Assembly (NCBI RefSeq): GCF_000236685.1 | Contig: NC_016633.1 | Span: 2,728,001 to 2,792,000 of the forward strand | Origin: Sphaerochaeta pleomorpha str. Grapes | GTDB taxonomy: Bacteria > Spirochaetota > Spirochaetia > Sphaerochaetales > Sphaerochaetaceae | Length of the DNA stretch: 64,000 bases | Direction: 5' to 3' | Shown: positions 35,220-55,841 of the stretch, piece by piece | How positions within the stretch are numbered: the first letter of the stretch is position 1 | Layout of the letters: every line of letters begins with the position of its first letter | Translations under genes and position numbers: made by a program | Notes under the pieces: generated by a model | Database searches by the model: none | The model's input: the letters and a program-made list of their open reading frames with translations, nothing else | Told to the model about the DNA's origin: nothing

Positions 35220-35927
35220 TTATTCTGGGATGATTCTCCGGTTCTCGCCAACCAGACCGATATGGACTCCCTGGGAAACAAGTTGTTGACGCTCAGGGTG
35301 GGCTATCATCCATTTGTTTTTCTTGAAAAGAAGGCGTCCTTCGGGGTCAGGGCAGGTCTTGAGCAGTTCTTTTCCTTCTTCATCCAAAGGTTCGTTTGTA
35401 TGAAGGGGGAGTACGATGATTGATTTGAAACCTTTTCCCCTGACCGTACAGGGTGCCAGATGCATGACATTTGCATAGATGAGGGACACCGATCCCTTGG
35501 GAAAGAAAAACACCTCGGCATCCTGGGTCCGTACGGTATTGAATTCATTCAAGTTCTCAAACGAGCAGAGAAACTGGACGCAGTCGGTTACTGCGACGAA
35601 GAGTTCGGGGCTTTTATGGTATTCCATACCATTGATAGTCTGGTTCGTCCCGTTGCAGTACCCTACCTGGATAGGCATATTGCCGAAATAGGTACCAAAC
35701 TGCCTGGACACTGTACAGTCCTCCAGTCCTTTCAGGCCAGGTTCGTAGATATTGCCTTCTTCTGGAATCGCCGTCAGATTGTCTGCCGTTTCAACCAATT
35801 CCGATACGTCCATACCTTTGAGTATTCTTCCGTATTTTCTGAACCGGGAAGAATCCAACGTGAGAATCATGGTTTCTTTGTTTGCAGAAGCCAGTTTTTC
35901 CGGAATACTGAAATATCTATCTTTCAT
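35220..35927 (-). CDS. DUF4867-type protein, candidate sulfoquinovose isomerase
   Basis: The 235 residues contain GYCNGTNQTINGMEYHKSPE and ANVMHLAPC segments that I recognise as the DUF4867 family, a cupin-like fold. E102, H104, E108 and H156 are possible metal ligands. From memory, a member of this family (SqvD) is the isomerase converting sulfoquinovose to 6-deoxy-6-sulfofructose in transaldolase and transketolase sulfoglycolysis. That role fits the operon: it lies 9 bp after a TauE-type exporter and last in the minus-strand set. The family call is from pattern memory, and the reaction is inferred from context. Confidence 0.65.
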   Translation of the reverse strand: MKDRYFSIPEKLASANKETMILTLDSSRFRKYGRILKGMDVSELVETADNLTAIPEEGNIYEPGLKGLEDCTVSRQFGTYFGNMPIQVGYCNGTNQTINGMEYHKSPELFVAVTDCVQFLCSFENLNEFNTVRTQDAEVFFFPKGSVSLIYANVMHLAPCTVRGKGFKSIIVLPLHTNEPLDEEGKELLKTCPDPEGRLLFKKNKWMIAHPERQQLVSQGVHIGLVGENRRIIPE

Positions 35928-35936
35928 TTCACACCT

Positions 35937-36674
35937 CTAAAAAATGAGCATAAAAAGACCGGTGAGCAAGAGCATGGAAAAAACGATGAGGGAAAACGTA
36001 CGTGCGTTGACCTTGTCATGGATTTTTTCGCCTGCAAAGATGCCCACAAGCACAAAAGGTACAAGATAAGCCGTTGTTTTTGCAACCGGGGCCGTAAAAG
36101 ACCCTTCTTTCAAATATACTGCAATGAGAATTGTATTGAGCGTCGTCCAGAGCAGACACAGGGTTGCCCTGAATTTTCCCTTGTCAGGGATATTCCTTGA
36201 TGCATACAGCACAACCAGAGGCCCTCCTGAAGAAAATATGCCATGGATTACCCCTCCTGCGATAAGCAAAAGGTAGTAGGGTAGGGCTTTCTTTCCGACA
36301 AGGGGTTTCTGAATTGAGTTTGTCCTGGATAATCTGATCAGCTGCCAGACAGAGACAATACAGATGAATATTGCCAGAATCAACTTCAATCCACCGCTGT
36401 CTATCGACCGGAAAAGATACATGCCGATGGGTAACCCGATAAGCATGAATCCTGCGATGATTGCAAATTGTTTCCAGTCAATGTACTTCCGCTTGGTAAT
36501 AGCAAAGTAGGCAGCAAGTATCCAAGCCAAGACAGTGATGACCATAACCCCGGTTCTCATACCCAAAAGACCTGTTACGAAGGGCATCGCCAGCACTGAG
36601 CAGCCGAACCCGGTAACAGCCTCGAGGGTATGGGTAATGAATACTACGATACCTGAGAGAATGATTGGACTCAT
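35937..36674 (-). CDS. TauE/SafE-family sulfonate exporter
   Basis: An integral membrane protein of 245 residues with about seven or eight spans. The N-terminal LSGIVVFITHTLEAVTGFGCSVLAMPF and the later GGVIHGIFSSGGPLVVLYAS repeat are the two glycine-rich family motifs. Family members export organosulfonates or sulfite. In this operon the likely cargo is isethionate, the end product of sulfoacetaldehyde reduction. It overlaps the alcohol dehydrogenase gene by 4 bp. The cargo is inference. Confidence 0.85.
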   Translation of the reverse strand: MSPIILSGIVVFITHTLEAVTGFGCSVLAMPFVTGLLGMRTGVMVITVLAWILAAYFAITKRKYIDWKQFAIIAGFMLIGLPIGMYLFRSIDSGGLKLILAIFICIVSVWQLIRLSRTNSIQKPLVGKKALPYYLLLIAGGVIHGIFSSGGPLVVLYASRNIPDKGKFRATLCLLWTTLNTILIAVYLKEGSFTAPVAKTTAYLVPFVLVGIFAGEKIHDKVNARTFSLIVFSMLLLTGLFMLIF

Positions 36675-37852
36675 AGTTTCTTACCGAGCATTTCGTACAA
36701 GGGTTTTTCCCTCATAGGAGGAAGCTGGTTAAGCATCTTCGGGTCGGTGAAAGATCTTTCGAACGTAGCCTCGATTTCCTGTTTCTCTAGAGAGACCCCC
36801 AAGTCCGTGAAAGTCTGGGGTACTTTCATTTCCGCTATCAAAGAAGCAATGGTAGAACGGAGGGTTTCAATCAGTTTCGTCTCGTCTGAAATTTCCGGAT
36901 TGAAATGTGAGGAAATCCTGGCAAGGGAAGAACGGTTCTGTTTTTCTTGGCAGGCCCAGTCGAATACCTCCAAAAGCGTGAATGCACAGGCAGCGCCATG
37001 GGGTACATGCCATTCCTCTGAGAGGATGAATGAAATAGCGTGGCCACTTGCAGTACCGGTAATGTTGAACGAGATACCTGCAAGGCAAGAAGCATTGAGC
37101 ATTTGTTTCTGGAGTTCTTTTCTGTCTTCCTTCTTCTCTACAATAGCACGATAGAGTTTAGGCAGGGTGGTCAATACTTCGATGGCAGCCTGTTCTGCAG
37201 CCAATCTCGTTATCGCCGTTGCATTCTTGTTCCAGATAGATTCCAAGGCATGGTCAAGGGCATCAAGGCCTGTGGAGGCACACAGGGAAGCAGGGATCGA
37301 GTCAAGGAAAGAACCGACCAGCAATGCCGTGTGAGCATGCATAAGAGGAGAGCCCAGAGTGTATTTTCTTCCCTTGGGGTCGGTATAGACACCGACTTTT
37401 GTAACCTCGGACCCGGTACCTGCTGTTGTGGGTATAAGCACAAGAGGAAGGTTCTTTTCGGTAATCTTCCTGCTTGGGGTATTCCCGAGGTAATCTTCCA
37501 GGCTTCCTTTGTTGGTTGTAAGCATTGCCAGGGCTTTTGCAGAGTCAAGGACACTGCCACCCCCGATTGAAAGGATGATATCGGCAGTCTCGAATTTCCC
37601 GGTAGCATACATTTCCATGATGTCGGTACACAGGGGGTTGGGACGCACAGTATCAAAAATCGAAACAGAACAGCTTTCCTTGAGTTCGTTGATAAGCTCA
37701 TCCCTTCTCGGGATAGGTGCTTTGTCGCAGACTATTGCAACGTTTAAATCCTCTCGTTTGCCAGCGGCAAACGAAAGGATATGTAAAAGTTGGTCTTTTG
37801 AGAGGTCCTCAAAGGAAAGGATATGCACATTGCTGAGCAAACTTCCTATCAT
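36671..37852 (-). CDS. Iron-containing alcohol dehydrogenase, candidate sulfoacetaldehyde reductase
   Basis: A group III alcohol dehydrogenase of 393 residues. The NAD-binding GGGS motif is at 97-100, the substrate/NAD PTTAGTGSEVT segment follows, and metal ligands appear in GLDALDHALES and HAISFILSEEWHVPHGAACAF. In taurine-degrading Bilophila the reductase SarD that makes isethionate from sulfoacetaldehyde belongs to this family. Here the gene follows an RpiB-like isomerase by a 4-bp overlap and precedes a sulfonate exporter, which supports the same reaction. Other small aldehydes remain possible. Confidence 0.88.
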   Translation of the reverse strand: MIGSLLSNVHILSFEDLSKDQLLHILSFAAGKREDLNVAIVCDKAPIPRRDELINELKESCSVSIFDTVRPNPLCTDIMEMYATGKFETADIILSIGGGSVLDSAKALAMLTTNKGSLEDYLGNTPSRKITEKNLPLVLIPTTAGTGSEVTKVGVYTDPKGRKYTLGSPLMHAHTALLVGSFLDSIPASLCASTGLDALDHALESIWNKNATAITRLAAEQAAIEVLTTLPKLYRAIVEKKEDRKELQKQMLNASCLAGISFNITGTASGHAISFILSEEWHVPHGAACAFTLLEVFDWACQEKQNRSSLARISSHFNPEISDETKLIETLRSTIASLIAEMKVPQTFTDLGVSLEKQEIEATFERSFTDPKMLNQLPPMREKPLYEMLGKKL

Positions 37853-38319
37853 TTGAAATTCTCCTCTTCAAGTGCCTTGACCTGGTTGAACGCATTGGTA
37901 AGGAATTCTTTTTTGAACTCCATCTTCTGGGTAAATTCCATTCCCAGCCAAGCTTCTACGATCTGGCAACCCAAGAAGGGGGCAGTGATCCAGCCGCCGA
38001 GGGTGATGACATTGGAGTTGTTTACGATCTTGGCACGTTCGCCAGAGAAGATATCATCGACTACACAGGCATAGACACCCTTGAACTTGTTGGCAACGAT
38101 GGCCATTCCCTGTCCTGTCCCGCAGATAAGGATTCCTTTTTCTGCTTTCTTCTCCTGGATAGCCTTTGCTACCTTGGGAGCCTGGATAAAATAGGGCTGG
38201 GGTTTGTCTGCGGATTCAATGCCGAAATCAATGATGTCCATTCCTTTTTCTTTGAGAAACGCGACAATTTCCTGCTTGAGGGGAAAACCTGAGAGATCAG
38301 ATGCAATCGCTATTGTCAT
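37849..38319 (-). CDS. RpiB/LacAB-family isomerase, candidate 4-deoxy-4-sulfoerythrose isomerase
   Basis: A 156-residue RpiB-fold isomerase. The catalytic base Cys66 is kept in ILICGTGQGMAI. Residues I remember as needed for ring opening and phosphate binding in E. coli RpiB are changed: the DH pair of the first loop is D8-L9, His99 is Val, and the GGRHxxR stretch is replaced by TQKMEFK near 130-136. A substrate without phosphate and unable to form the same ring is therefore likely, as expected for SqwI, which converts sulfoerythrose to sulfoerythrulose. AAGGAG before ATG 38319 fixes the start. Confidence 0.82.
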   Translation of the reverse strand: MTIAIASDLSGFPLKQEIVAFLKEKGMDIIDFGIESADKPQPYFIQAPKVAKAIQEKKAEKGILICGTGQGMAIVANKFKGVYACVVDDIFSGERAKIVNNSNVITLGGWITAPFLGCQIVEAWLGMEFTQKMEFKKEFLTNAFNQVKALEEENFK

Positions 38320-38332
38320 GGTACGTACTCCT

Positions 38333-39274
38333 TTAGTTGGTTTCTTTGACCAGTCGGGCAGCCTGGAGGGCAATTTCCTCTGCTGTCATTTTATAATACT
38401 GTTGCAACCAGGCCTGGGTTCCGACCTGTCCGAATTCATCTTGGACACCAACCATTGCCATGCGGGTAGGATGGTTCTTTGCAAGGAAATTGGCAACTGA
38501 ATCGCCGAGTCCCCCACTTACCTGGTGGTCTTCTGCCGTTACGATCCTGCCGGTTTTCTGTGCATAGGCAAGGACCAGTTCCTCGTCAAGGGGTTTTACG
38601 GTGTGCATGTCGATGACTGCTGCCGAGATACCGCTTTCCTTCAGGATTCCTGCAGCCTTGAGAGCCTCAGGGACGAGTATTGCCCCAAGTGCAATGATGG
38701 TTACATCGGGTCCGTCCAGCAATACCTTTCCCTTTCCCAGTTCAAAGGTTTCCCCTTCTGCATAGATAGGTTTGACAGCCTTGCGGTGAAGACGCATATA
38801 GGTGCATCCCTCATGCTTGGCACATGCACGTACCAAAGCTTCCAGAGAGACAGGGTCGGAAGGTTCGAGGATGGTAAGGTTTGGAATGAGCTTCATCATG
38901 CCGATATCTTCAAACGGCATGTGGGTCCCGCCGTTGAAACCTGCCGAAATTCCAGGGTCGGTCCCTACAAGCTTTACATTCAGCCCGGCGTAGTTGGCCG
39001 AAATGAAGAACTGGTCGAATACCCTGCGGGAAGCAAAGCAGCCGAAGGTGGCGGCAAAGGGAATTTTTCCGTCGGCACTCAATCCAGCGCTGACACCGAC
39101 CATGTTTGCCTCGGCCACCCCGACATCGACACTACGCTGCGGATAGACATCCTTGAACTTCATGGTGCCGGTAGCCTTCATGAGGTCAGCTTCTACTACT
39201 ACTATTGCAGGATTCTCACTGGCCAGGTCAATGAGGGTATCACAGTATACTGCACGCATTTCTTTAGTTTCCAT
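38333..39274 (-). CDS. Split transketolase, C-terminal subunit
   Basis: The pyrimidine-binding and C-terminal domains of a two-gene transketolase, 313 residues. The catalytic Glu lies in DVGVAEANMVGVSAGLS, and substrate/cofactor residues include ATFGCFASRRVFDQ. It lies 11 bp behind the N-terminal subunit gene. In a standard pathway it serves the pentose phosphate cycle. In this operon it is the candidate sulfofructose transketolase (SqwGH), which would act twice: on sulfofructose, and on sulfoerythrulose to give sulfoacetaldehyde plus xylulose 5-phosphate. Specificity is inferred. Confidence 0.9.
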   Translation of the reverse strand: METKEMRAVYCDTLIDLASENPAIVVVEADLMKATGTMKFKDVYPQRSVDVGVAEANMVGVSAGLSADGKIPFAATFGCFASRRVFDQFFISANYAGLNVKLVGTDPGISAGFNGGTHMPFEDIGMMKLIPNLTILEPSDPVSLEALVRACAKHEGCTYMRLHRKAVKPIYAEGETFELGKGKVLLDGPDVTIIALGAILVPEALKAAGILKESGISAAVIDMHTVKPLDEELVLAYAQKTGRIVTAEDHQVSGGLGDSVANFLAKNHPTRMAMVGVQDEFGQVGTQAWLQQYYKMTAEEIALQAARLVKETN

Positions 39275-39285
39275 ACCTTTCTCCC

Positions 39286-40107
39286 TTAACCGAGCTCGGC
39301 GATCGCCTTGTTGGCTACCGTCAGATCAAAATTCATATTGTGGTTTGATACCAAACCTTCGCAGAAGGCCGCACCCTTGCCCTTGATGGTATCAAGGATG
39401 ATCATTGAAGGTTTCCCTTCCTGTTGTTTGGCATTCTCGATAGCCTGATGCATCGCCGAATAATCATGACCGTTGACACGCTGTACATACCAGCCGAAGG
39501 TTTTCCACTTGCCTTCAATATCTCCAAGACTCATGATATCGTCGGTGGTCCCGTCGATCTGGAGCTTGTTGTAATCGGTAAAGGCGATGAGGTGGTCAAG
39601 TTTATATTGGGAGGCAAACATCCCGGCTTCCCAGTTTTGTCCTTCCTGTGACTCACCGTCTCCGATGATTGCATAGGTATAGCAGGGATTCTTGTCCATT
39701 CTTCTGGAAAGGGCAAGGCCACAGGCTGCCGAAAGGCCTTGGCCGAGAGATCCTGTGGACATATCGATGCCTGGTGTCTTTAACCGGTCACAATGGCTGG
39801 GAAGGTTTGTTCCACCCTGGTTGAGTGTATCGAGTTCCTTTAGGGGGAAGAATCCAAGGAGGGCGAGGGTTGCATATAAAGCAGGACCGCTGTGTCCTTT
39901 GGACAGGACAAGAAGGTCTCTGTTCTTCCATAGTGGGTTTTTGGGATCCACTTGCATTTCCTGCGCATAGAGGAGGGCAAGGATGTCGACAACCGACAGT
40001 GCTCCTCCGATGTGCCCGACTCCTAGATTACCAATGGTATACAGGGTTTTCTTGCGGATTTCTTTTGCAAAATCCTGAACTTGTTCAAGTGCCTGAGATG
40101 AAAGCAT
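39286..40107 (-). CDS. Split transketolase, N-terminal subunit
   Basis: The diphosphate-binding domain of transketolase, 273 residues. The thiamine diphosphate motif runs from GDGESQEG to DYNKLQ, and an early GHIGGALSVVDILALLY and later SKGHSGPALYATLALLGF supply the substrate-channel His residues. It is the first gene of the six-gene minus-strand operon, 64-bp leader from a consensus promoter. It forms the enzyme with the next gene's product. Proposed substrates are sulfofructose and glyceraldehyde 3-phosphate, from operon context. Confidence 0.92.
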   Translation of the reverse strand: MLSSQALEQVQDFAKEIRKKTLYTIGNLGVGHIGGALSVVDILALLYAQEMQVDPKNPLWKNRDLLVLSKGHSGPALYATLALLGFFPLKELDTLNQGGTNLPSHCDRLKTPGIDMSTGSLGQGLSAACGLALSRRMDKNPCYTYAIIGDGESQEGQNWEAGMFASQYKLDHLIAFTDYNKLQIDGTTDDIMSLGDIEGKWKTFGWYVQRVNGHDYSAMHQAIENAKQQEGKPSMIILDTIKGKGAAFCEGLVSNHNMNFDLTVANKAIAELG

Positions 40108-40462: not shown

Positions 40463-41308
40463 ATGATTGTTTTGCATACCAAAGATAGTCGTCTGGTTGT
40501 GGATGAGGAATGCGGATTCACCATCACCAGCTGGGAATATAAAGGAATTGAGAGGTTGGTGTTTGACAGAGCACGTATAGCAATGGGTAAAACTAGCGGT
40601 ATCCCGATTCTTTTTCCGACTCCCAACAGGATAAAAGAAGGTACCTTTGTTTTTGAAGGGCAGCGTTATCAGGGTTTTATGCATGGTAGGGTACGTTTTG
40701 AAAGATTTACAGTTCTGCAACAAACTGCAACAACCTGCAAAGGTGCTTTCTGCTGCAGGGAGGGAAATCGAGTGTACGAGACGTTTCCGTTTCTTTTCAC
40801 CCTGACTATTGAAATTGTACTTGGGGAAAAGGGAATATCCTGGCACTTCGAAATTGAAAACCAGGATGATAAACATCTTCCCTTTGGAATCGCAATCCAT
40901 CCCTATCTGAAAAAACTGGGGCCTTCACAGATCAAATGCAGTGCTGAATATGTTATGGAAAATGACAACGATCTCTGTCCTTTGGGTTCCTTAGGCGATT
41001 CTGCTCTTCTTCAGGCGATAGACGTAGAGGAAACGGATCTGGATTTGGTCTTCTATGCAAAAGAGCATGCCGTTGTTACCGAGTTTTTTACAGGGGGAGC
41101 CTGCTATCGCCTTTTTGGGTCCGAGGACTTCCATCATACGGTAATCTATACCCCAAGGCAGGAACCCTTTGTCTGTATTGAACCTCAATCCTGCAGTACC
41201 GATTCAATCAATCTGTATTCCCATGGTTTTTCAAAACTGTCAGGGTTGCAGATTCTTTCACCTGGAGAAAAGAAAAAAGAGCTGATAGCTATTGAGCTTG
41301 GGGAGTAG
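40463..41308 (+). CDS. Aldose 1-epimerase family protein, candidate sulfoquinovose mutarotase
   Basis: A galactose-mutarotase-fold protein of 281 residues. Landmarks are GIPILFPTPNRI, FMHGRVRF with the first catalytic His, AIHPYLK with the second, and EPQSC with the catalytic Glu. It interconverts the alpha and beta forms of a free sugar. In sulfoglycolytic bacteria a mutarotase of this family (YihR-like) handles sulfoquinovose released by the glycosidase. The position between the transketolase operon and transport genes suggests that role, but the sequence alone shows only the family. Confidence 0.85.
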   Translation: MIVLHTKDSRLVVDEECGFTITSWEYKGIERLVFDRARIAMGKTSGIPILFPTPNRIKEGTFVFEGQRYQGFMHGRVRFERFTVLQQTATTCKGAFCCREGNRVYETFPFLFTLTIEIVLGEKGISWHFEIENQDDKHLPFGIAIHPYLKKLGPSQIKCSAEYVMENDNDLCPLGSLGDSALLQAIDVEETDLDLVFYAKEHAVVTEFFTGGACYRLFGSEDFHHTVIYTPRQEPFVCIEPQSCSTDSINLYSHGFSKLSGLQILSPGEKKKELIAIELGE

Positions 41309-41390: not shown

Positions 41391-42392
41391 ATGAGAAACC
41401 GTTTTGCGCTTGTTCTGCTATTGCTCTTATTGGTTCCTGTGTTTGTCTTTGCACAGGGTGGTACTGAAAAATCTACGTCTGCAAGTGGTAATTATTTTGA
41501 TTCTACCGTCAAGATTATCATACCTTATGGGGCTGGTGGTACCCATGATGTAGTGTCCAGAAAGTTTGCTGAAGTAGGCTCAAAATATACCAAAGCCCCG
41601 ATTGTCTGTGAGAATGTCACCGGTGGAGATGGTATTGTTGCCGCAACCCTGTACACAAAGAAAGATAGGAACGTGAAAGAATTGCTTACCACTTCCTATG
41701 GTTTGTGGTATCAGAAGATTGTAAAAGGCGATGCGATCAAGCTTGACCTGGACGAACTGCATCCGATCGGGACCTTTGATGACAGGAGTTACCTCCTCTA
41801 TGTCAGAGCCAATTCATCCTACCAGACACTTGAAGACCTGATTGCCGAATCAAAAACCAGAGAGATCGTATGTTCTGCCGGCGCTGTCGGTTCAGACGCT
41901 CACCTCTGTTTTGGTGGTCTTATCAACCAGGCCGGTGGCAAAAGCCGCATTGCTTCCTATGAAGGCGGAGCAGAGCAGATTAATGCATTGATCAACGGAG
42001 AAGTTGACTGTTTCGTGGGAACCCCCCAGGTTGGCCAGCAGTACTTGGAGACCGGCAAGGTCCGTGCCCTTACCTGTTTCAAAGACTTTGACTACGAAGG
42101 ATTCAAGGATAGCCTTGGTATCGTTGTTCCCAACTGTAGCGATGCCGGTTACCCCAGTTCTGCTATCACAGGCGGCGGTTTCCTCAGTGTCAGAACCGGT
42201 GCTGACCCTCAGATTGTTGCCGATGTCGAGGAATTGATGAAAAAAGTATGGGCCGATCCTGATTTCAGAAACTATACCGTTGAAATCGGTTTGAATGTCT
42301 ACGAAATCTATGGTGAACAACTCCAGGCTCACATCAAGGAAGCTGGAGTAAATGCTACTGCTGCTGCTAAGTCCTTGGGATTGCTTAAATAA
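41391..42392 (+). CDS. TctC-type (Bug) substrate-binding protein of a TTT transporter
   Basis: The periplasmic receptor of a tripartite tricarboxylate-type transporter, 333 residues. A signal peptide runs to VFVFAQGGTEK. The mature protein shows the family pattern KIIIPYGAGGTHDVVSRKFAEV near the start and FVGTPQVGQQYLETGKVRALTCF later. Such receptors bind carboxylates and some sulfonates or sugars acids. AAAGGAG lies 7 bp before the ATG. A hairpin separates it from tctB. Its ligand is unknown; co-regulation with the sulfonate genes makes a sulfonate worth testing. Confidence 0.9.
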   Translation: MRNRFALVLLLLLLVPVFVFAQGGTEKSTSASGNYFDSTVKIIIPYGAGGTHDVVSRKFAEVGSKYTKAPIVCENVTGGDGIVAATLYTKKDRNVKELLTTSYGLWYQKIVKGDAIKLDLDELHPIGTFDDRSYLLYVRANSSYQTLEDLIAESKTREIVCSAGAVGSDAHLCFGGLINQAGGKSRIASYEGGAEQINALINGEVDCFVGTPQVGQQYLETGKVRALTCFKDFDYEGFKDSLGIVVPNCSDAGYPSSAITGGGFLSVRTGADPQIVADVEELMKKVWADPDFRNYTVEIGLNVYEIYGEQLQAHIKEAGVNATAAAKSLGLLK

Positions 42393-42413
42393 TCAGAATT
42401 TTGACGTAAGGGA

Positions 42414-42433
42414 GGGGTTCTGTCCAGAACCCC
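42414..42433 (+). terminator. Attenuator-like hairpin after the TTT receptor gene
   Basis: The arms GGGGTTCT and AGAACCCC, a loop of four bases, then TTACTATTTT. Partial termination here would give more receptor than membrane subunits. Confidence 0.7.
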
Positions 42434-42464
42434 TTACTATTTTGCTAAAAAGGAGGGGACGCAT

Positions 42465-42923
42465 ATGAAAGTAAGATCTAACTTAGTGAGTGGTATTATT
42501 TTTATGGTTCTCGGTGCCGCACTTTTATTATTAATGAAGAGCCAGGTTATTGTGTATGGGGATGTCCCGTTCATCGAAAGTGCTAAGGTTATCCCATTTT
42601 TTGTTGAAGTTATCATGCTTGTTTGTGGTGCTATCCTTGTTATACAGAGCTTGTTCTTGAAAAAAGAAACATATGTGGATATTTGTTGGGCAGAACAAAA
42701 ATATGCTTTGATGATCATTGGAATCTTTGCGGTCTTTGCGACTCTGATCTATTTTGCAGGGTTCATTGTCGGTGCAATTGGATTCATCGTGATGATGGCT
42801 TTCTTTTTCAGAGATAAAAATATTGTGCATATACTAATCCTCGCTGTATTGGCAATTCTCATTTATCTATTGTTTACGAGGGTTTTTAATATAAGCTTGC
42901 CTGGTTTTGGTGAGGTGAGGTAG
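42465..42923 (+). CDS. TctB-type small membrane subunit of the TTT transporter
   Basis: A 152-residue protein with four hydrophobic spans in the TctB pattern: LVSGIIFMVLGAALLLL at the start, then a span after a charged loop, and two close spans near the end. It partners the large TctA subunit, which starts 3 bp later. GGAGG lies about 8 bp before the ATG. Confidence 0.88.
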   Translation: MKVRSNLVSGIIFMVLGAALLLLMKSQVIVYGDVPFIESAKVIPFFVEVIMLVCGAILVIQSLFLKKETYVDICWAEQKYALMIIGIFAVFATLIYFAGFIVGAIGFIVMMAFFFRDKNIVHILILAVLAILIYLLFTRVFNISLPGFGEVR

Positions 42924-42926
42924 AAA

Positions 42927-44450
42927 ATGGTAGATATATTTGGACAAGTTGCAGTGCAACTATTTACTTTGCAAAATTTGTTTTTTGCCGTTGCCAGCGT
43001 ATTTTTAGGCATAATCATCGGTGCAATTCCGGGATTGACGGTTACATTGGGAATAATCCTATTGCTTCCAATGACTTACGGGATGACTCCGATCACGGCA
43101 ATCGTTGCCCTTTTGGGTATTTATGTCGGAGGATGTTATGGTGGTTCTATCAGTGCAATCCTGATAAATATCCCGGGCACAAACTCAGCCCTTGCGACCA
43201 CTCTCGACGGCTATCCCCTGGCAGTCCAGGGTAAAGCCAACAAAGCCTTGAGCACCTCTCTTTTTGCTTCTTGTGTTGGTGGTTTCCTTGGTTCCCTGAT
43301 TCTTCTTTTTGCCGCCCAGCCAATTGCAACCCTTGCAATGAAATGTCGTTCGCCGGAGTATTTTTCCCTGGCTCTTTTCGGTTTGACAGTCATAGCAGGG
43401 GTAAGTGGCGATAGTATCGTCAAAGGCCTGATTTCTGCCTGTGTAGGGATTTTTATTTCCTGCATAGGTCTTGAAAGCCTTACCGGTACGCTGCGGTATA
43501 CCTTCGATTCGATGTTGCTGTTTTCCGGGGTAAGTCTACTCCCTGCATTGATCGGTCTGATTGCCCTGACGCAGGTCCTGATAAAATCAGTGGAAGAAAA
43601 GAGGGCTGTTGCACAAGCCTCAAACGTCAATTTCGTTGAGAAACTGAATGACCCACCGATTAACGGAGCTGAACGCCGTTCCATTATGAAAACCATTTTG
43701 AAATCGACCGGTATTGCAACCATCATCGGGGCGATGCCTGGTGCAGGTGGTGGAGTAGCCTCCTTCCTCAGCTATAATGAAGCCAGAAGAAGCAGCAAGC
43801 ATCCGGAAGAATTCGGAAAAGGCTCTCTGGAAGGCATTGCTGCTGCCGAGTCAAGCAATAATACTGTGGTAGGTTCTGCCATGATTCCTTTGCTTACCTT
43901 GGGTATCCCAGGCGATGGCGTTACCGCTATCTTGCTCGGCGCTTTCATTTTGCATGGGATGCAGCCGGGACCCAAACTCTTTACTGACCAGGCAGTCGAG
44001 ACATACTCTATTATAGTGGGATTGGTAATTTGTAATATTATCCTCTATGTACTCGGTAGGCTCTGCACGAAGCAAATTTCAAGAATCATCAATATTTCCT
44101 ATAAGATTCTTGGTAGTGCCATTGCCCTTTTCTGCTTTGCCGGTGCGTTTGCGAATAGCGGGAGTATCTATGAGATGATTCTCATTGTGCCTCTCGCAAT
44201 TGTCGGTTACTACCTTGGTTTATTGGGCTTCTCTGTAATCCCGATGATGCTTGGGTTGATCCTTGGTCCAATTGTTGAAGTAAACTTTACAAGGAGCATG
44301 ATTGTTTCCTTCGGTGATCCCCTGATATTCTTCAAGGAACCTGTAAGCTGTATTATCTTGGTTTTTGCCTTGATCTTTACTATTTTGGTAATGAAGATGA
44401 ACAAGAAAATGGAACTTGACAATCCTGAAACGGAAGGACTCAGCGAGTAA
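42927..44450 (+). CDS. TctA-type large membrane subunit of the TTT transporter
   Basis: The 507-residue channel subunit with about ten to twelve spans. The two family repeats carry glycine-rich loops: GAIPGLTVTLG near residue 32 with YGGSISAILINIPGTNSA, and GAMPGAGGGVASFLSYNEARRSSKHPEEFGKG followed by IPLLTLGIPGDGVTAILLGAF. It uses an ion gradient to move the substrate delivered by the TctC-type receptor. A FucI-like gene follows 44 bp later. Confidence 0.95.
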   Translation: MVDIFGQVAVQLFTLQNLFFAVASVFLGIIIGAIPGLTVTLGIILLLPMTYGMTPITAIVALLGIYVGGCYGGSISAILINIPGTNSALATTLDGYPLAVQGKANKALSTSLFASCVGGFLGSLILLFAAQPIATLAMKCRSPEYFSLALFGLTVIAGVSGDSIVKGLISACVGIFISCIGLESLTGTLRYTFDSMLLFSGVSLLPALIGLIALTQVLIKSVEEKRAVAQASNVNFVEKLNDPPINGAERRSIMKTILKSTGIATIIGAMPGAGGGVASFLSYNEARRSSKHPEEFGKGSLEGIAAAESSNNTVVGSAMIPLLTLGIPGDGVTAILLGAFILHGMQPGPKLFTDQAVETYSIIVGLVICNIILYVLGRLCTKQISRIINISYKILGSAIALFCFAGAFANSGSIYEMILIVPLAIVGYYLGLLGFSVIPMMLGLILGPIVEVNFTRSMIVSFGDPLIFFKEPVSCIILVFALIFTILVMKMNKKMELDNPETEGLSE

Positions 44451-44494: not shown

Positions 44495-45841
44495 ATGAAT
44501 ATGTCGAATTCAATGAATGTCTTATATGTGCCTGTTGGTGTCGGTACTTTCGATTTGGTCTGTGCTCAGGATCAATTTGAAAAGTCTATTGCCCTGCTAA
44601 GAAACCTCTATCCGGAGGTAATTGTCCCTGAAGAGCCTTTGTTGACCCTTGCAAAACTGAATGCTTTTTTGGATGCCAATAATCCGGATTTTGTTATCGT
44701 ACAGAATATTACGTTCGCAAATTCGGCTTATGTAAGTGAAGTACTTGCTCGTTTTACCTGTCCTCTGTTGCTTTGGACTTTAACCGAACCTATCGTTGAT
44801 GGGGCTCGCTTGCGACTCAATTCCTTGACAGGGGCCTATTCTGCAGCAAATACCATGATGCTTTTGGGCAGGAATGACTTCTTGTATGTGCTTGGAGGCC
44901 CAGAGGATACAAGTGTAATTGCAAAGGTTGGCCAGGCCTTGGCCGCTGTCGGTCTTAGGTACGATCTCAAGGGAATGAAAATGTCTGCTATCGGCCATAC
45001 CCCCCAGGGGTTTGGCTTTGGTAGGGCCCTGGACAGCGAACTGCTGAAGACCTTCTCTGTCCGGCTTGAAAGTATCGAAGTCAGGGAATTGATGGAGAAG
45101 GCCCGTTCCTTCAAGCAGGGGGAGAGCGACCAGTACAAAACGCTTATGGAAGAGAGTACCTGCAACTGTGTGGAATGCCCCCGTGAAAGAATGGAAGATT
45201 CTGCCCATCTCATGCATGCCTATATGGATTATGTACAAGAGAATAACATCAAAGCACTGGCTTCCCGATGCTGGCCTGATTTTTTCACTTCCTACGGGAC
45301 TCCTGTCTGCTCGGTACTTTCTTTGCTCAATGACCAGGGGGTTGCCTCTGTGTGCGAATCAGATATGTATGGAGCCCTATCCCAGTTCGTTGCAAGGAAT
45401 CTGACAAAGAAAAGCTCTTTCTTCGGGGATCCTGTCTATATGGATGAAGAAGCCGGGACCATAACCTATTGGCATTGTGGCATGGCAGCACCTTCTTTGG
45501 CACAAAACAAGTGTGCTTGCATCGGGGTTCATCCCAATCGGAAGATTGGACCGGTCATGGACTTTGCCTGTGCCCCCGAGGAACACGTTACCATCTTCCG
45601 TATCGGAAGAAAGATGGATGGTACCTTCAGGCTTTTCTCTACAAAGGGGAGTGCTTTGGATGTCCCCAAGCAATTTTCGGGAACTTCGGTTGTGGTAAAG
45701 ACTGACCATGATGCAAGGGCCGTTGTGGAAAAAAGTGTAGTCGATGGCTGGGAGCCTCATTTTGTTGTTGCCTATGGCGATATCCAAGAGACCCTCGCTA
45801 TGTTTGCAAAAATCATGCATATCGAGTTCTGCGCCTATTAA
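44495..45841 (+). CDS. L-fucose isomerase-like sugar isomerase
   Basis: A 448-residue protein of the fucose/arabinose isomerase superfamily. The metal-binding pattern ASVCESDMYGALS (E288, D290) and YWHCGMAAPSLA (H327) are visible. These enzymes convert aldoses to ketoses using Mn2+. The natural substrate is unknown. It follows the TTT transporter and may share its operator-controlled transcript, so it could act on what that transporter imports. It could also be an alternative sulfoquinovose isomerase beside the DUF4867-type protein. The FucI family is normally 590 residues, so this is a shorter branch. Confidence 0.82.
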   Translation: MNMSNSMNVLYVPVGVGTFDLVCAQDQFEKSIALLRNLYPEVIVPEEPLLTLAKLNAFLDANNPDFVIVQNITFANSAYVSEVLARFTCPLLLWTLTEPIVDGARLRLNSLTGAYSAANTMMLLGRNDFLYVLGGPEDTSVIAKVGQALAAVGLRYDLKGMKMSAIGHTPQGFGFGRALDSELLKTFSVRLESIEVRELMEKARSFKQGESDQYKTLMEESTCNCVECPRERMEDSAHLMHAYMDYVQENNIKALASRCWPDFFTSYGTPVCSVLSLLNDQGVASVCESDMYGALSQFVARNLTKKSSFFGDPVYMDEEAGTITYWHCGMAAPSLAQNKCACIGVHPNRKIGPVMDFACAPEEHVTIFRIGRKMDGTFRLFSTKGSALDVPKQFSGTSVVVKTDHDARAVVEKSVVDGWEPHFVVAYGDIQETLAMFAKIMHIEFCAY

Positions 45842-46156
45842 TCAGTACTCTCCCTTTCCCCGATTTCTTGTGGTTGAGGAATTGATTGACTGTTCACCAC
45901 GTTCTATGTTTTTATATGTAGGGGGTGGTGAATCTTTATCTGATCCTTTTGCGGGGGTCTGGCTACTTGATAGATAGGATTTCTGTATCTGATACATCCC
46001 AACCGAGACAACGGCAGGAAAGCGAGGGGGTGACAAAGGTCCTTGCAATTCAATAAAGGCAAAGATTCTGCTTTATGAATAATAGCGGATAGTAAACTCA
46101 CTTCTTGTGGATTTTTTCATAGGAAGGGGGTAGACTGATTTAGTATGGAGGATGTA
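45842..46156. other. Non-coding gap before the ROK gene
   Basis: I see no gene. A hairpin with arms TTCACCAC (45893-45900) and GTGGTGAA (45925-45932) around a 24-nt loop may end the TTT operon. No clear promoter for the ROK gene is found. Confidence 0.5.
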
Positions 46157-47323
46157 ATGCAAGGAAATCCGCTGAGAGCTTCTGATTTACGAGTGCACAA
46201 CCAGAATATTGTCTTATCCCGGATTCATGCTTCCCAGACAGTAGGGACATCCCAATCTGAAATAGTCCAGGCTACTGGTTTGAAGGCCCCTACGATTTTC
46301 AGGATTTTTTCTTCCTTGGAAGAAGAGGGTCTGATCAGATCGATTTCCAATGACCTCGAAGAGGGGGCCTTGGCTAAAAAGGGAAGGCGCCCAGTCAATT
46401 TTATCGTATGTAAGGATGCCCGGTATTCGATCGGGATTGAATTCTGGACCGCCTATCTTTCCATCGGGGTTTTTAATTTTCTGGGAGAACGAATTTACTC
46501 GAGCATGCATCCGCTTGCAGATAGGGTAACTGCCGATGAGGTTGTTTCGCTCATCGTCAAGCAAGTCAAGGAAATAATTGAAGAACTGAACATTCCCATG
46601 GAGAAAATGCTTGGCCTTGGGGTGGCAGCCCCCGGGCAGGTTGACCTGGCACAAAACCGGGTTGCCTATTATCCTCGTATTGTAGGTATGAAAAATTACC
46701 CTATCGTGGAGGTCCTTCAACAACAGCTCTCCCTTCCGGTAATCCTTCACAACAATTGCTCGGCCCTGGCTTTCAGTGAATATCGCTATGGTGGTTTTGA
46801 CCATGATGGTTCCATGTTTACCTTCCTGTTGAGAACTGGGGTGAACGGGGCCTTTGTCCATGATGATGTTATTTATACCAATAGCAAATCCCTTACCATT
46901 GAGACAGGGCATATCCCTATCAATTTTGATGGTCCCCGTTGCAGTTGTGGTTCCCGCGGCTGTCTTCAGGCCTTCCTGCAGGACCTCGATCCAGATTCTG
47001 TGGACAACCGCCTGGCTTTGTTCGAAGGGCTGGATGCAAAACTGAAGGATAATGATTTGCAGGCGCTGAGGACTATTGAACGGGCTGCAGGATATCTTGT
47101 AATTGCCATGAAAGTAATCATGCGGTTCCTTGCTCCGAAATCATTCCTTTTTGTTGGTTGCTCAGCTACGGTTTCGGAAGCGATCTGTAATCAGGTGCGA
47201 CGTTTGATTTCTGAACCGGACGCTTTTGAAACTGCCCCCCCTAAAATATTTGCTACCTCATACGATCCTTTGCTCGCACAAAAAGGCGCCTCTGATTTGG
47301 TTTTGGTAGATTTCTTCAGGTAG
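46157..47323 (+). CDS. ROK-family transcriptional regulator
   Basis: A sugar-responsive repressor of the NagC/XylR type. An N-terminal winged helix (TSQSEIVQATGLKAPTIFRIFSSLEEEGLI) is followed by the ROK sugar-binding domain. The zinc-binding motif GHIPIN...CSCGSRGCLQ is intact. The kinase catalytic motif NDAN is replaced by NNCS, and the phosphate loop reads IGIEFWT, so it should bind sugar without phosphorylating it. ATG 46157 with GGAGG just upstream is preferred to 46145. It lies between the TTT and ABC operons, whose promoters share a palindromic operator, making it the likely local regulator. Confidence 0.9.
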   Translation: MQGNPLRASDLRVHNQNIVLSRIHASQTVGTSQSEIVQATGLKAPTIFRIFSSLEEEGLIRSISNDLEEGALAKKGRRPVNFIVCKDARYSIGIEFWTAYLSIGVFNFLGERIYSSMHPLADRVTADEVVSLIVKQVKEIIEELNIPMEKMLGLGVAAPGQVDLAQNRVAYYPRIVGMKNYPIVEVLQQQLSLPVILHNNCSALAFSEYRYGGFDHDGSMFTFLLRTGVNGAFVHDDVIYTNSKSLTIETGHIPINFDGPRCSCGSRGCLQAFLQDLDPDSVDNRLALFEGLDAKLKDNDLQALRTIERAAGYLVIAMKVIMRFLAPKSFLFVGCSATVSEAICNQVRRLISEPDAFETAPPKIFATSYDPLLAQKGASDLVLVDFFR

Positions 47324-47848: not shown

Positions 47849-49117
47849 ATGTTGCGTAAATCAAAGACACTGGCAGTGTTGCTCGTAGTTCTTTCGTTGG
47901 TTTTCCCTCTGTTCGCACAGGGGCAAACCGAAGCATCAACCCCGAAGGAAGTTGAACTTCGATGGGCAAGCATCTGGGTAGGCAATGATAGCAAGGCCCC
48001 TGCAGTAGAGGCATTGGTGAATGAATTCAACGCCGCAAATGCAGGAAAAATCAAAGTTGTCATCGAGCCTCAGCCCGATTACAATGCGTATGAACAGAAA
48101 GTCCGTACTTCCCTGGCAGCCGGCCAGGCCCCTGCGGATATCTTCACGATCAAATTCAATCCTACAACTGCTACGTTCTACCAGTCAAAATTGCTAATGG
48201 ACTTCGCAAAAGTAATGGATTCCGAGTGGAAGTCAACCTTTGACGCAGGCTCTTTGGCCCAGTCAACCGTAGATGGTGTTCTCAGATCCCTCCCGATGGA
48301 AGTTGCCATTCTGCCCATCTGGTACAACATGGACGCTTTCAAGTCAGTCGGTGTTACCTCAGTACCAAAGACCATGGATGAGTTGATGAGCGCATTCGAC
48401 AAGCTGAAGGCTGCAGGAATTGCCCCTTCGAGTCAGATGACTGGCGATACAAACGCTTGGACTTCCATGATTTGGTTCTCCCACCTTGCAGTCTCCCTCG
48501 GCGGAGTCAATGTCTGGGACAAACCCTTTACTGATCCTGCTTTCGTCCAGGCAGCTACCATCTTGAAGAAGGTAATTACCGATTATTCTACCGCTGATGC
48601 AGTAGGCCTCGGTGCAGGTGGAAGCGGCGGGCATTTCCTTGCCGGACGCACTGCCGTGTTCTCCAACGGACCTTGGTATGCCGGTCGTGCAGACCTTGCG
48701 GCTACCCCGTTCTTCAATTCGATCAAGATTGACAAGCTTGCCCCTGCCGGGTCAACCTCTGATTTCATGATCAGCCGCCTGCAGGCAAATATCTGTGCAG
48801 CCTCAACGAATGACAAGGCTAAAGAAGCAGCTATCCTTGAGTTCATGAAGTATTTGACCAGCAAGGCAAGTATCGCCCGCATTGCAGAATCCTCTGGTGC
48901 AATGTTTGCAATCAAGTCCGGTTACATGCCCGTCAAACCGCTCCAGAAGCAGTTCTATGAACTGGCCAATTCTGTTTCTGCAACCTCTTTCGACCTTGAG
49001 GCAGCCCTTGGTGCCGAAGTTACCCTTGAGTTTGCCCAGCAGCTTGGTGCCCTTGCCCTGGGGAATATCACCCCTGAAGAATTCTGTGCCCTGGTTGACA
49101 GGAAGATTGAACGCTAA
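47849..49117 (+). CDS. ABC sugar-binding protein, candidate sulfoquinovose-glycoside receptor
   Basis: A family 1 extracellular solute-binding protein of 422 residues. The signal peptide ends near FPLFAQGQTEA. Typical segments are VVIEPQPDYNAYEQKVRTSLAAGQAPADIF and GRTAVFSNGPWYAG. It is the first gene of an operon with two permeases and a sulfoquinovosidase-type GH31 enzyme, so the expected ligand is sulfoquinovosyl glycerol or sulfoquinovose. AAAGGAG precedes the ATG. The ligand is inference from context. Confidence 0.9.
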   Translation: MLRKSKTLAVLLVVLSLVFPLFAQGQTEASTPKEVELRWASIWVGNDSKAPAVEALVNEFNAANAGKIKVVIEPQPDYNAYEQKVRTSLAAGQAPADIFTIKFNPTTATFYQSKLLMDFAKVMDSEWKSTFDAGSLAQSTVDGVLRSLPMEVAILPIWYNMDAFKSVGVTSVPKTMDELMSAFDKLKAAGIAPSSQMTGDTNAWTSMIWFSHLAVSLGGVNVWDKPFTDPAFVQAATILKKVITDYSTADAVGLGAGGSGGHFLAGRTAVFSNGPWYAGRADLAATPFFNSIKIDKLAPAGSTSDFMISRLQANICAASTNDKAKEAAILEFMKYLTSKASIARIAESSGAMFAIKSGYMPVKPLQKQFYELANSVSATSFDLEAALGAEVTLEFAQQLGALALGNITPEEFCALVDRKIER

Positions 49118-49127
49118 AAGTCTTTAT

Positions 49128-49154
49128 AGCCACCATCAAGCAATGATGGTGGCT
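49128..49154 (+). terminator. Attenuator-like hairpin after the ABC receptor gene
   Basis: A perfect 11-bp stem, AGCCACCATCA with TGATGGTGGCT, around a 5-nt loop, followed by a pyrimidine tract ending in TTTTT. It probably lowers expression of the permeases relative to the receptor. Confidence 0.75.
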
Positions 49155-49185
49155 TCAATTCCCCCTTTTTCTGAGGAGTCCAAAC

Positions 49186-50079
49186 ATGCAGGCAAACAGC
49201 AAACGAGGTAGAACAATTTGGGGTGGAAGGATACTTTTCCTCCTTCCTGTTTTCCTGTTCTTCTTTTTCTTTTATCTTTACCCGTTCGTTTTCACCATTT
49301 TTACCAGTTTCACTTCTTGGCGTGGCATTGGTTCCATGAAATTCAACGGATTACACAACTATGTGAAATTACTCTCAGACCCTACTTTCAGAAAAGCCCT
49401 TGGAAACAACATCATCTGGGCTCTCTGCCAAGGTTTCATACAGGTTCCCCTTGCCTGTCTCGTTGCCATGATTCTTGTTCGTAAGCCGAAAGGCTGGAAA
49501 TTCCTGAGGACGGTGTATTACCTTCCCAATGTAATCTCGACAGTAGCCTTGGCGATGGTCTGGGTTGCCATTTACAATGTCACAGGACCCTTGAATTTTA
49601 TTTTGGAAAAACTGTTCGGCATGGAAAGCAAAAACTGGCTCGGGAATCCCGATACTGCCTTGTTTTCTGTTATTTTCCAGACCGTTATCTATATTGGTTA
49701 CTTTATGATAGTTCTCCTTGCCTCTGCGATGAATATTTCCCGTTCCCTCTACGAAGCAGCAGAGATTGATGGGGCGAATACCCTGCAACAGGAGATTCAT
49801 ATCACCCTCCCCATGTTACGCGGAAGCCTGATCACTACCATGACGTTGGCAATGGCTTATGGAATGAGGCATTTTGAGTCCACCTTCCTGATGACAGGGG
49901 GAGGCCCTGCCTATTCGACAACCACCATGGGTATTGACCTGTACCTGAAGATGGATGCCCTGCGTTACAGCGAAGCTAGTACTGCCGGCGTATTCCTCAT
50001 CTTGTTGGGTACGGTGGTCATTACGCTTCTCAGAAAGCTCTTCGGGAAATCTGACCCGATGAGCGATATGGCACAGTAG
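49186..50079 (+). CDS. ABC sugar permease (MalF type)
   Basis: An inner-membrane permease of 297 residues with six spans. The EAA loop that contacts the ATPase is EAAEIDGANTLQQEIHITLP near residue 190. GAGGAG lies about 8 bp before the ATG. No ATPase gene is in the operon, so a shared MsmX/UgpC-type ATPase from elsewhere is expected. Confidence 0.93.
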   Translation: MQANSKRGRTIWGGRILFLLPVFLFFFFFYLYPFVFTIFTSFTSWRGIGSMKFNGLHNYVKLLSDPTFRKALGNNIIWALCQGFIQVPLACLVAMILVRKPKGWKFLRTVYYLPNVISTVALAMVWVAIYNVTGPLNFILEKLFGMESKNWLGNPDTALFSVIFQTVIYIGYFMIVLLASAMNISRSLYEAAEIDGANTLQQEIHITLPMLRGSLITTMTLAMAYGMRHFESTFLMTGGGPAYSTTTMGIDLYLKMDALRYSEASTAGVFLILLGTVVITLLRKLFGKSDPMSDMAQ

Positions 50080-50089
50080 GAGGCTTGGT

Positions 50090-50932
50090 ATGAAAGTAAA
50101 ACATAGTACCCTATGGGTTTTTGGCAATACGCTCAAATGGATTCTGTTGCTTGTGCTGCTGGCCCTTGCACTGCTTCCTCTTATCTGGCTCTTTATCAGT
50201 TCGCTCAGGACAAACCTCGAATTACAGGTTTCCCCTTTTGGACTGCCTGAGAAATTGCAGTGGTCGAACTATAAAAATGCCTTGGCCATGGCGAGTCTTC
50301 CCCGATTGTTGTTCAATTCGGTTTTTGTCGCTGCCTGTGCGGTAATCCTGAATATGCTGGTTACGGCTATGGCCGGTTTCATCCTTTCCAGGGAACACTT
50401 CAAGGGTAGGGATATAATCTATACTGTTTTGACTGCAGGGGTTTTGGTACCAGTTATTTCATTTATGGTTCCCTACTTTTCCCTGATAACCCATACCGGT
50501 CTTTACAACACCCTTTTTGCGTTGATCCTTGTCTATACTGCGGTCAATATCCCCGTTTCCATCTTTTTGGTTACTGCTTTCATGAAAAGCATTCCCAAGG
50601 AACTTGAAGAGGCGGCGATTATCGATGGCTGTGGTTTTCTCAAGCGTTTCACCAAGATTATTCTTCCTTTGTCACGTTCGGGGCTAGTCACTGCAGGGAC
50701 TTTTTGTTTCATCTATTCCTGGAATGAATTCCTCATGGCCATGTTGTTGACATCCAGTATTGAGGCAAGGACTATCCAGCTTGGGATCAAGTTCTTCTCA
50801 AGCCAGTTCATTACCGATTACAGCAGTATGTATGCTGCAGTTATCATTACCATTATCCCGAGTGTTGTCGGATATGTGATGCTGCATGACAAGATTATCG
50901 GCGGACTTACCGCCGGAGGGGTTAAAGGCTAA
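50090..50932 (+). CDS. ABC sugar permease (MalG type)
   Basis: The second permease, 280 residues with six spans and the EAA loop EEAAIIDGCGFLKRFTKIILP near residue 170. The characteristic ending GLTAGGVKG is present. It follows the first permease by 10 bp and precedes the GH31 gene by 2 bp, so import and hydrolysis are probably coexpressed. Confidence 0.93.
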   Translation: MKVKHSTLWVFGNTLKWILLLVLLALALLPLIWLFISSLRTNLELQVSPFGLPEKLQWSNYKNALAMASLPRLLFNSVFVAACAVILNMLVTAMAGFILSREHFKGRDIIYTVLTAGVLVPVISFMVPYFSLITHTGLYNTLFALILVYTAVNIPVSIFLVTAFMKSIPKELEEAAIIDGCGFLKRFTKIILPLSRSGLVTAGTFCFIYSWNEFLMAMLLTSSIEARTIQLGIKFFSSQFITDYSSMYAAVIITIIPSVVGYVMLHDKIIGGLTAGGVKG

Positions 50933-54189: not shown

Positions 54190-55191
54190 ATGAAAAAGAA
54201 TGTTATCGGAATCCTGGCAATTGTTGCTTTGCTTGCCACGAGTATTCCCTCTGTCTTTGCACAGGGTGGATCAGAGAAGGCTGATAAGGTCTATACCTTG
54301 AAACTTTCGACACAGCTCAATGAAACAACCCCGATGGTTGAAGGCTTCAAGGAATTGGCAGAGTCGGTCAAGGCCAAATCCAATGGTCGCTTGGTCATTG
54401 AGGTATACCCTTCTGCCCAGCTTGGTTCTGACGAAGATGTAATTGAACAGGCCTTGCAGGGTGTCAACGTTGCCGTTCTTACTGACGGTGGCAGAATGGG
54501 CAACTATGTAAATGATATCGCAATCATCGGAATGGCCTATTTTGCAAACAACTATGATGACGTATTGAAAGTCACCCAGAGTGAAATCTTTGCTGGATGG
54601 GAGAAAGAACTTGCACAGGAGAATGGTATCCGTATCCTGTCTTTTAACTGGTATGACGGTGCAAGAAGTTTCTTTACCAATAAAATCGTAGAGACCCCTG
54701 CCGATTTGAAGGGTTTGAGAATTCGCACCCCCGGTGCACCTGCCTGGGCACAGAGTATTGCCGCCCTTGGTGGTACCCCCGTTGCCATGCCTTGGGGCGA
54801 AACCTATTCCGCGGTTCAGTCAAAAGCTGTTGATGGCTGTGAAGTTCAGTTGACTTCTGCCCTTGGTTCAAGGATCTACGAAGTCCTCAAATATATGGAC
54901 AAGACCGAACACTTCCAGCTGATTAATGGCTTGATTGTCGGCGAGAAATGGTTCAATACGCTTCCTGCAGACTTGCAGAGCCTTTTGCTTGAGGAAACAA
55001 AGAAAGCCGGCGAGAAGAATGCCCGGTATGTTGAATCAAAAATTGCAGATATCGAGAAACAATTGGTCGGGTATGGCGTAACCGTTATTGAACCGGATGT
55101 AGCGGCCTTCAGGGAAGCCTCTGATGCAGCCTACGAAAAGCTTGGTTTTACGGATCTCAGAAAACAGATTTACACACAGATCGGTAAATAA
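54190..55191 (+). CDS. TRAP transporter substrate-binding protein (DctP family)
   Basis: A periplasmic receptor of 333 residues with a signal peptide ending near SVFAQGGSEK. Family landmarks are the central RIRTPGAPAWAQSIAALGGTPVAMPW segment with the substrate-binding Arg and EVYPSAQLGSDEDVIEQ. The neighbours (uxuA, uxuB, FadR regulators) suggest that it binds a hexuronate or aldonate. GGAGG lies before the ATG. A terminator-like hairpin follows the gene. Confidence 0.93.
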   Translation: MKKNVIGILAIVALLATSIPSVFAQGGSEKADKVYTLKLSTQLNETTPMVEGFKELAESVKAKSNGRLVIEVYPSAQLGSDEDVIEQALQGVNVAVLTDGGRMGNYVNDIAIIGMAYFANNYDDVLKVTQSEIFAGWEKELAQENGIRILSFNWYDGARSFFTNKIVETPADLKGLRIRTPGAPAWAQSIAALGGTPVAMPWGETYSAVQSKAVDGCEVQLTSALGSRIYEVLKYMDKTEHFQLINGLIVGEKWFNTLPADLQSLLLEETKKAGEKNARYVESKIADIEKQLVGYGVTVIEPDVAAFREASDAAYEKLGFTDLRKQIYTQIGK

Positions 55192-55840: not shown

Positions 55841-55841
55841 T

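Follow-up and report, generated by a model that had tools for sequence, protein, structure and literature searches.

The sulfoquinovose cluster and its RpiB-fold gene

The window, a stretch of 64,000 nucleotides from Sphaerochaeta pleomorpha str. Grapes (NC_016633.1, positions 2,728,001 to 2,792,000), contains the gene set of the sulfoquinovose (SQ) transketolase (sulfo-TK) pathway, with a split SqwGH and C2-sulfonate genes adjoining at 35220-40107 (Table 1). The set as described in passages of PMC9594981, PMC11659671, PMC12890257 and PMC13219744 comprises SqwG, SqwH, SqwI, SqwF, SqwE, SqvB, SqvD/SftI and YihQ.

Table 1. Genes of the sulfosugar cluster in the window and the evidence for their assignment
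Gene	Product	Coordinates	Strand	Evidence
sqvB	DUF4867, predicted sulfoquinovose ring-opening enzyme / mutarotase	35220..35927	-	PF16161 1e-70
sqwE	TauE/SafE-type exporter, predicted isethionate exporter	35937..36674	-	PF01925 3e-25; literature
sqwF	Iron-type alcohol dehydrogenase, predicted sulfoacetaldehyde reductase (isethionate branch)	36671..37852	-	PF00465; position and literature
sqwI	RpiB-fold isomerase, predicted 4-deoxy-4-sulfoerythrose isomerase	37849..38319	-	PF02502, signature, AlphaFold model
sqwH	Transketolase pyrimidine-binding and C-terminal subunit	38333..39274	-	PF02779/PF02780
sqwG	Transketolase ThDP-binding subunit	39286..40107	-	PF00456 5e-53
	Aldose 1-epimerase-like, divergent from sqw operon	40463..41308	+	PF01263
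	Tripartite tricarboxylate-type transporter	41391..44450	+	PF03401 for TctC, 41391-42392
	Sulfoquinovose isomerase, SftI/SqvD-like, fucose isomerase fold	44495..45841	+	NF048012 366 bits; PF02952 weak
	ROK-family regulator	46145..47323	+	NagC/ROK models, below cut-offs
	Sugar ABC transporter: solute-binding protein and two permeases	47849..50932	+	Sequence look
yihQ	YihQ-type GH31 sulfoquinovosidase	50935..52956	+	NF007746 911 bits vs cut-off 553; KRLRW motif

The sqwI reading frame starts with an ATG at 38319, preceded by AGGAG 8 nt upstream, and stops at 37849-37851, giving a product of 156 amino acids. It lies 13 bp downstream of sqwH and overlaps sqwF by 4 bp. The identification of SqvB with DUF4867 is that of PMC9594981, and sqwF reached no equivalog cut-off in NCBIfam. 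The SftI-like gene is full length and scores below the NF048012 cut-off of 700; since its counterpart in a Firmicutes sulfo-TK locus (L151) scores 214, that cut-off excludes this branch. From their position and family look, we take the frames at 42465-42923 and 42927-44450 to be the small and large membrane subunits of the TctC-type transporter. Genes similar to those of the ABC transporter were typed as solute-binding protein and permease in two related clusters (c13 and c8). The KRLRW motif of YihQ-type GH31 enzymes presumably has a role in sulfonate binding. Beside the sulfosugar genes, the window carries a TRAP transporter and GntR-type regulators (54190-63936) that read as a uronate module; genes for proteins of 357 and 535 amino acids in this region resemble, by eye, mannonate dehydratase and a fructuronate/mannitol-type dehydrogenase.

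SqwI belongs to the LacAB_RpiB family (PF02502, E=2e-39, 135 bits vs a Pfam cut-off of 24.7) and is 37% identical to E. coli RpiB (from NC_000913.3) in a sequence alignment. It fails the NCBIfam equivalogs for both RpiB (TIGR01120, 114.5 vs 138.65) and EryI (NF051858, 96.8 bits vs 240), and NCBIfam 20.0 returned no model for SqwI with the window protein. PF02502 matches two genes of the source genome (3.59 Mb, one contig), sqwI and a canonical RpiB gene at 2995998-2996411, so ribose 5-phosphate activity need not come from sqwI.

An AlphaFold2 model of SqwI, built from a 40-row alignment, has a pLDDT of 89.8 and a pTM of 0.82, with a mean pLDDT of 62 for residues 131-140; it is a monomer, and the active site lies in the dimer. 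Superposition on RpiB, which had been proposed as a check when the gene was read from its sequence, gave Z 22.5 to E. coli 2vvr over 143 residues (2.0 A, 38% identity, VIA-align). Solved RpiBs as a group scored Z 22-23.5, the Coccidioides immitis entries 23.2-23.3, and nothing outside the RpiB family appeared at Z>=9 among the matches listed.

The gene order recurs in relatives. A scan of genome contigs confirmed 305 places, and at 76 of the best 80 a SqwH-like gene lies directly upstream on the same strand, with a gap of 3-593 bp. At thresholds of 28-45% identity, these 80 loci contain SqwG-like genes in 71 cases, SqwF-like in 36, SqvB-like in 34, SqwD-like in 29 and YihQ-like in 25; one or more of the SqwF-, SqwD-, SqvB- and YihQ-like genes are present in 68, and the DNA examined shows none of these four in the other 12. 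As the best 80 of the 305 places were kept, all such counts lean toward close relatives. In the SqwD-like group, the aldehyde dehydrogenase comes closest to acylating sulfoacetaldehyde dehydrogenase (512.6 bits vs a cut-off of 600) and is followed by a CoA-ligase pair and then a sodium:sulfate-type symporter, matching the sulfoacetate variant of sulfo-TK cited in PMC11659671. Four of the 80 loci (L066, L080, L085 and L090) have no adjacent SqwH. The L085 and L090 genomes encode SqwG elsewhere, at 62-63%; in the L080 genome none was found, the best match being 34% in a 663-aa frame.

Several variant clusters also occur. In Anaerolineae (L078 at 4830-13521; also L047, L064 and L074), SftI-like, SqwG, SqwH, SqwI and GH31 genes occur with an aldehyde:ferredoxin oxidoreductase (PF01314/PF02730). 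These four have no SqwF, and only L047 has a SqwD-like gene; possibly they use a ferredoxin-linked sulfoacetaldehyde branch. The L078 cluster also has a TauE exporter, and its GH31 resembles alpha-xylosidase models more than YihQ and has no KRxxW motif. Together with the 12 of the best 80 loci that have no marker gene, this suggests that some close relatives may serve another sugar, a point against the sulfosugar assignment. At the Treponema locus L080 (5830-13385), the sqwI-like gene is preceded by an SftI-like gene and by one for a class II aldolase of 232 aa, which does not have the C-terminal part of its family model and may replace transketolase; SqwD-, CoA-ligase- and exporter-like genes follow. 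Four further loci (L099, L104, L075 and L108) are minimal SqwG-H-I modules with no C2-sulfonate finishing gene in reach, three of them with an ABC sugar transporter and a ROK gene alongside.

We are confident, if short of certain, in assigning the window gene as sqwI of the SQ transketolase pathway, encoding the isomerase that converts 4-deoxy-4-sulfoerythrose (SE) to 4-deoxy-4-sulfoerythrulose (SEu). SqwI was named as SE isomerase in PMC9594981, where the activity is proposed, and passages of PMC13219744 describe the sulfo-TK pathway and transcription of sqwGHI during SQ degradation, Sphaerochaetaceae included. The sulfotetrose substrate suggested by the sequence-only reading agrees with this published assignment and with the gene context.

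Active-site residues of SqwI

Residues are numbered throughout as in E. coli RpiB. The alignment contained 88 unique spirochaete-type sequences, four Firmicutes cluster sequences and 36 others; the 88 represent 102 loci (the window, 21 loci and the best 80 of 305 places) with 14 duplicates collapsed. Two partial genes (L024 and L025) were left out, as were L002, L113, L114, L122-L124, L128-L132 and L134 as second gene copies.

The catalytic core is kept. Asp9, Cys66, Thr68, Asn77 and Asn100 are each conserved in 88 of 88 sequences (those from the best 80 of 305 places included). Retention of Cys66 and the CGTG loop in the window protein, as claimed from the sequence, is borne out by alignment with E. 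coli RpiB. Much of the surrounding site is replaced: again with sequences from the best 80 of 305 places counted, His10 is Leu, Asp42 is Pro, Arg83 is Tyr, Arg110 is Trp and Arg133 is Met in all 88, while His99 is Val in 51 (the window protein among them) and Ile in 37, and the place of Arg137 stays basic (Lys in 87, Arg in one). The His134 place falls on a one-residue gap, or on Glu134 if the alignment is made without it, and the window residue at the Arg137 place is correspondingly Lys136 or Lys137. The end positions of the structural match (model residue 145 to chain residue 146) agree with the sequence alignment and so point to Lys136, although this placement would follow from alignment ranges in the low-confidence loop 131-140. 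The C-terminal helix is longer than that of RpiB by seven alignment columns.

Five residues (His10, His99, Arg133, His134 and Arg137) had been read as lost. The first four are indeed gone; the fifth is a conservative, charge-keeping change, and the loss of all five is ruled out by the Lys or Arg at that place. The replacements at Arg110, Asp42 and Arg83 had been passed over.

Several of these residues have assigned roles. In Leishmania RpiB, the phosphate is bound by His11, Arg137 and Arg141 (E. coli 10, 133 and 137), and Arg113 (110) is named as well; Cys69 acts as base with help from Thr71, and the H102N variant is dead (PMC4783025). In the M. tuberculosis enzyme, Arg113 both contacts phosphate and covers the pocket, and His99/His102 opens the furanose ring, H99N costing the E. 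coli enzyme 26-fold in kcat (PMC3755991).

As RpiB-type comparators we used 25 sequences, E. coli RpiB included, which share 36-64% identity with that enzyme. They have His99 in 25 of 25, a figure that is partly a matter of row choice because seven EryI-like rows, a clade in which His99 is always absent, were set apart. Arg137 is likewise present in all 25, His10 and Arg83 in 24, His134 in 21, and Arg133 and Arg110 in 19 each; Trp110 occurs in two. His10, His99, Arg110, Arg133, His134 and Arg137 are all present in the canonical RpiB encoded elsewhere in the source genome. Because the replacing residues of SqwI are fixed across relatives, they are not due to chance, drift or decay. As judged from these sequences, the rebuilding of the active site is real and strongly conserved, in an enzyme that is known and uncharacterized.

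EryI and Firmicutes SqwI as comparisons

EryI, which acts on D-erythrulose/erythrose 4-phosphate, an open-chain but phosphorylated tetrose (PMC5992420), served as a control. Two rows, L116 from Rhizobium and L115, score above the EryI cut-off of 240 (257.7 and 256.6 bits, NCBIfam). Genes for glycerol-3-phosphate dehydrogenase, a TIM-barrel protein, a regulator and triose-phosphate isomerase neighbor L116, surroundings that we take to be the ery operon. In both rows, positions 10, 99 and 134 are Ser and Arg110 is retained; next to position 133, an Arg is present in L116 (by eye, with a one-residue shift) and absent from L115. Five more EryI-like rows are also without His99, and position 110 is Arg in five of the seven and Gln in two. 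Trp110, by comparison, is found in 92 of 92 SqwI rows, Firmicutes counted and sequences from the best 80 of 305 places included.

EryI thus resembles SqwI in its open-chain tetrose substrate and in the replacement of His10, His99 and His134, and differs in the phosphate of the substrate, in Arg110 and in a shorter C-terminus. The losses of His10, His99 and His134, and in part of Arg133, appear from these alignments to track the open-chain tetrose and not the missing phosphate. An acyclic, unphosphorylated sulfotetrose had been deduced from the residues; the acyclic tetrose fits, but since EryI shares the losses with a phosphorylated substrate, the named residues do not establish that the substrate carries no phosphate. 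Residue losses alone as a sign of an unphosphorylated substrate are ruled out, EryI having lost three of the residues and partly a fourth. That part of the assignment rests mainly on gene context. At the level of sequence, the change of Arg110 to Trp is what best separates SqwI from EryI, though not exclusively. The comparison separates the loss of ring opening, which goes with an open-chain substrate, from the loss of the phosphate clamp; the two are usually lumped.

Firmicutes SqwI (L149-L152, four rows of which two are nearly identical) have their own SqwGH genes and are 42-47% identical to the spirochaete type. They have Asp9, Cys66, Thr68, Pro42, Ile99, Trp110, Leu133, Glu134 and Arg137, but Lys10. 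A class-level search gave a match at E<=1e-28 in 18 of 391 genomes, with wider DNA taken for six places. Family and order searches round two genomes gave no further Firmicutes SqwI (one in 6 and one in 22, each already known).

In a tree of all columns (62 rows), EryI-like rows and SqwI lay on one side of a branch with support 99/93, and the EryI-like rows formed a clade (98/88). A second tree, of 60 rows, excluded the trait columns and also LacA/LacB. In it, spirochaete-type and Firmicutes SqwI stayed together (95/85), as did SqwI with L153 and L154 (96/87), and the EryI-like rows moved away from SqwI. The trait-free tree needs two changes for the loss of His99, though a single one may have sufficed. 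A single origin of this loss in EryI and SqwI is unproven, the sister relation being gone without the trait columns. Both histories fit: two losses would be convergence on open-chain tetroses, and a single loss would predate the sulfonate.

The two rows that join SqwI lie in clusters of their own. In L153 (Firmicutes, 1309-12188), the RpiB-like gene (Met10, Ile99, Trp110) is accompanied by genes for a split transketolase, an SDR, a member of the transaldolase family and a glycyl radical enzyme, along with an activase-like gene and, by eye, TRAP-type transporter genes; the cluster is a possible pathway for an unknown sugar. In L154 (7388-13836), an outlying branch of the SqwI clade, the RpiB-like protein has Ile99 and Thr110, and its gene lies close to two pairs of split transketolase genes and two genes for zinc alcohol dehydrogenases.

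These data bear on the possibility that the window protein is a tetrose 4-phosphate isomerase of the EryI type, converting D-erythrose 4-phosphate to D-erythrulose 4-phosphate and feeding transketolase. The shared absence of the three His residues, the 99/93 branch and the adjoining transketolase genes are what this explanation would predict. However, the protein fails the EryI model, the sister relation vanishes without the trait columns, and the Arg110 of most EryI-like rows is Trp in 88 of 88 relatives (some of them from the best 80 of 305 places), with no Arg at 133. The cluster is for SQ, not erythritol, and we regard an EryI-type enzyme as very unlikely.

Proposed function of SqwI and comparison with known systems

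As an SE isomerase, SqwI would act between two cleavages. SqwGH would cut 6-deoxy-6-sulfofructose to give SE, SqwI would convert this to the ketose SEu, and SqwGH would cut SEu again to sulfoacetaldehyde, which SqwF would reduce to isethionate for export by SqwE. Cys66 would be the base between C1 and C2, with Thr68 aiding proton transfer and the backbone loop 67-71 holding the enediolate. Since SE has no 4-hydroxyl, its chemistry would allow no furanose closure, so the ring-opening His99 would not be needed and its place could be taken by a packed Val or Ile. The phosphate clamp His10-Arg110-Arg133-His134 would become Leu-Trp-Met-Glu, and Lys136, at the Arg137 place and beside Trp110, would face the singly charged sulfonate. 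These inferred sulfonate contacts of Trp110 and Lys136 are the weakest step of the mechanism. In sulfoquinovosidase, too, Trp and Arg engage the sulfonate. A basic residue is not always required for sulfonate binding, since IsfD relies on Tyr, Gln and a bridging water molecule (PMC12133307).

According to PMC9594981, SE isomerizes spontaneously, which has hampered direct measurement of SqwI and means that the step may not need the enzyme. SqwI could then act otherwise on a sulfosugar, for example in epimerization or ring opening of another intermediate, as might be suggested by L080, with its sqwI-like gene and class II aldolase but no split transketolase. L080 is, however, a single case; the aldose-ketose isomerase core is fully kept, and the position after sqwH in 76 of the best 80 of 305 loci ties sqwI to the transketolase product. 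We think this role very unlikely. Least probable of all is that SqwI is a normal ribose-5-phosphate isomerase whose active site has drifted and which supplies the pool of pentose phosphates that transketolase makes. This would account for the fold and the catalytic Cys, and an extra pentose isomerase would be useful in a pathway that makes xylulose 5-phosphate, but the protein falls below the RpiB cut-off and has no ring-opening His, its replacements are invariant, not drifting, and another gene of the genome encodes a canonical RpiB.

The assignment as SE isomerase can be extended tentatively, as something that may well turn out otherwise. SqwI might form a distinct RpiB-fold class of open-chain sulfotetrose isomerases, with Trp110 and a basic residue at 137 replacing the clamp, that also serves variant clusters in which aldehyde:ferredoxin oxidoreductase takes the place of SqwF/SqwD (Anaerolineae) or a class II aldolase that of transketolase (L080).

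SqwI is the one sulfo-TK step published as only proposed, because its substrate isomerizes by itself. The fixed set Leu10, Pro42, Tyr83, Val/Ile99, Trp110, Met133 and Lys136 makes the step testable by mutation and offers a sequence mark to keep SqwI apart from RpiB in annotation. We found no published account of the SqwI active site in the titles and passages searched, and subscription journals may hold one.

Among known systems, the SqwI proteins of sulfo-TK in Clostridium sp. MSTE9, Faecalicatena and Sphaerochaetaceae share PF02502, the place after SqwGH and the predicted reaction (PMC9594981, PMC11659671 and PMC13219744). The likeness to MSTE9 SqwI is by description; its Firmicutes stand-ins, at the identities given above, have Lys10 in place of Leu10. 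E. coli RpiB has the same fold and Cys66-Thr68 core, with ring opening and phosphate clamp intact. DhuI (4u8f, Z 15) belongs to the RpiB family and acts on an unphosphorylated sugar acid (PMC12838403), a parallel to the substrate predicted here; it differs in its length (212 residues), its C6 uronate substrate and its 20% identity.

A precedent for the losses is C. immitis RpiB (3qd5 and 3sdw, Z 23), which has lost phosphate residues and the ring-opening His, and whose authors suspected a shorter-chain substrate (PMC3212906). Unlike SqwI, this fungal enzyme has Ser at the His99 place, holds phosphate with Lys and two Ser, and does not belong to a sulfosugar cluster. As it lost the same groups, the pattern of loss has already been seen in the family. 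The protein and its role as SqwI are known already; its active-site pattern is undescribed but expected.
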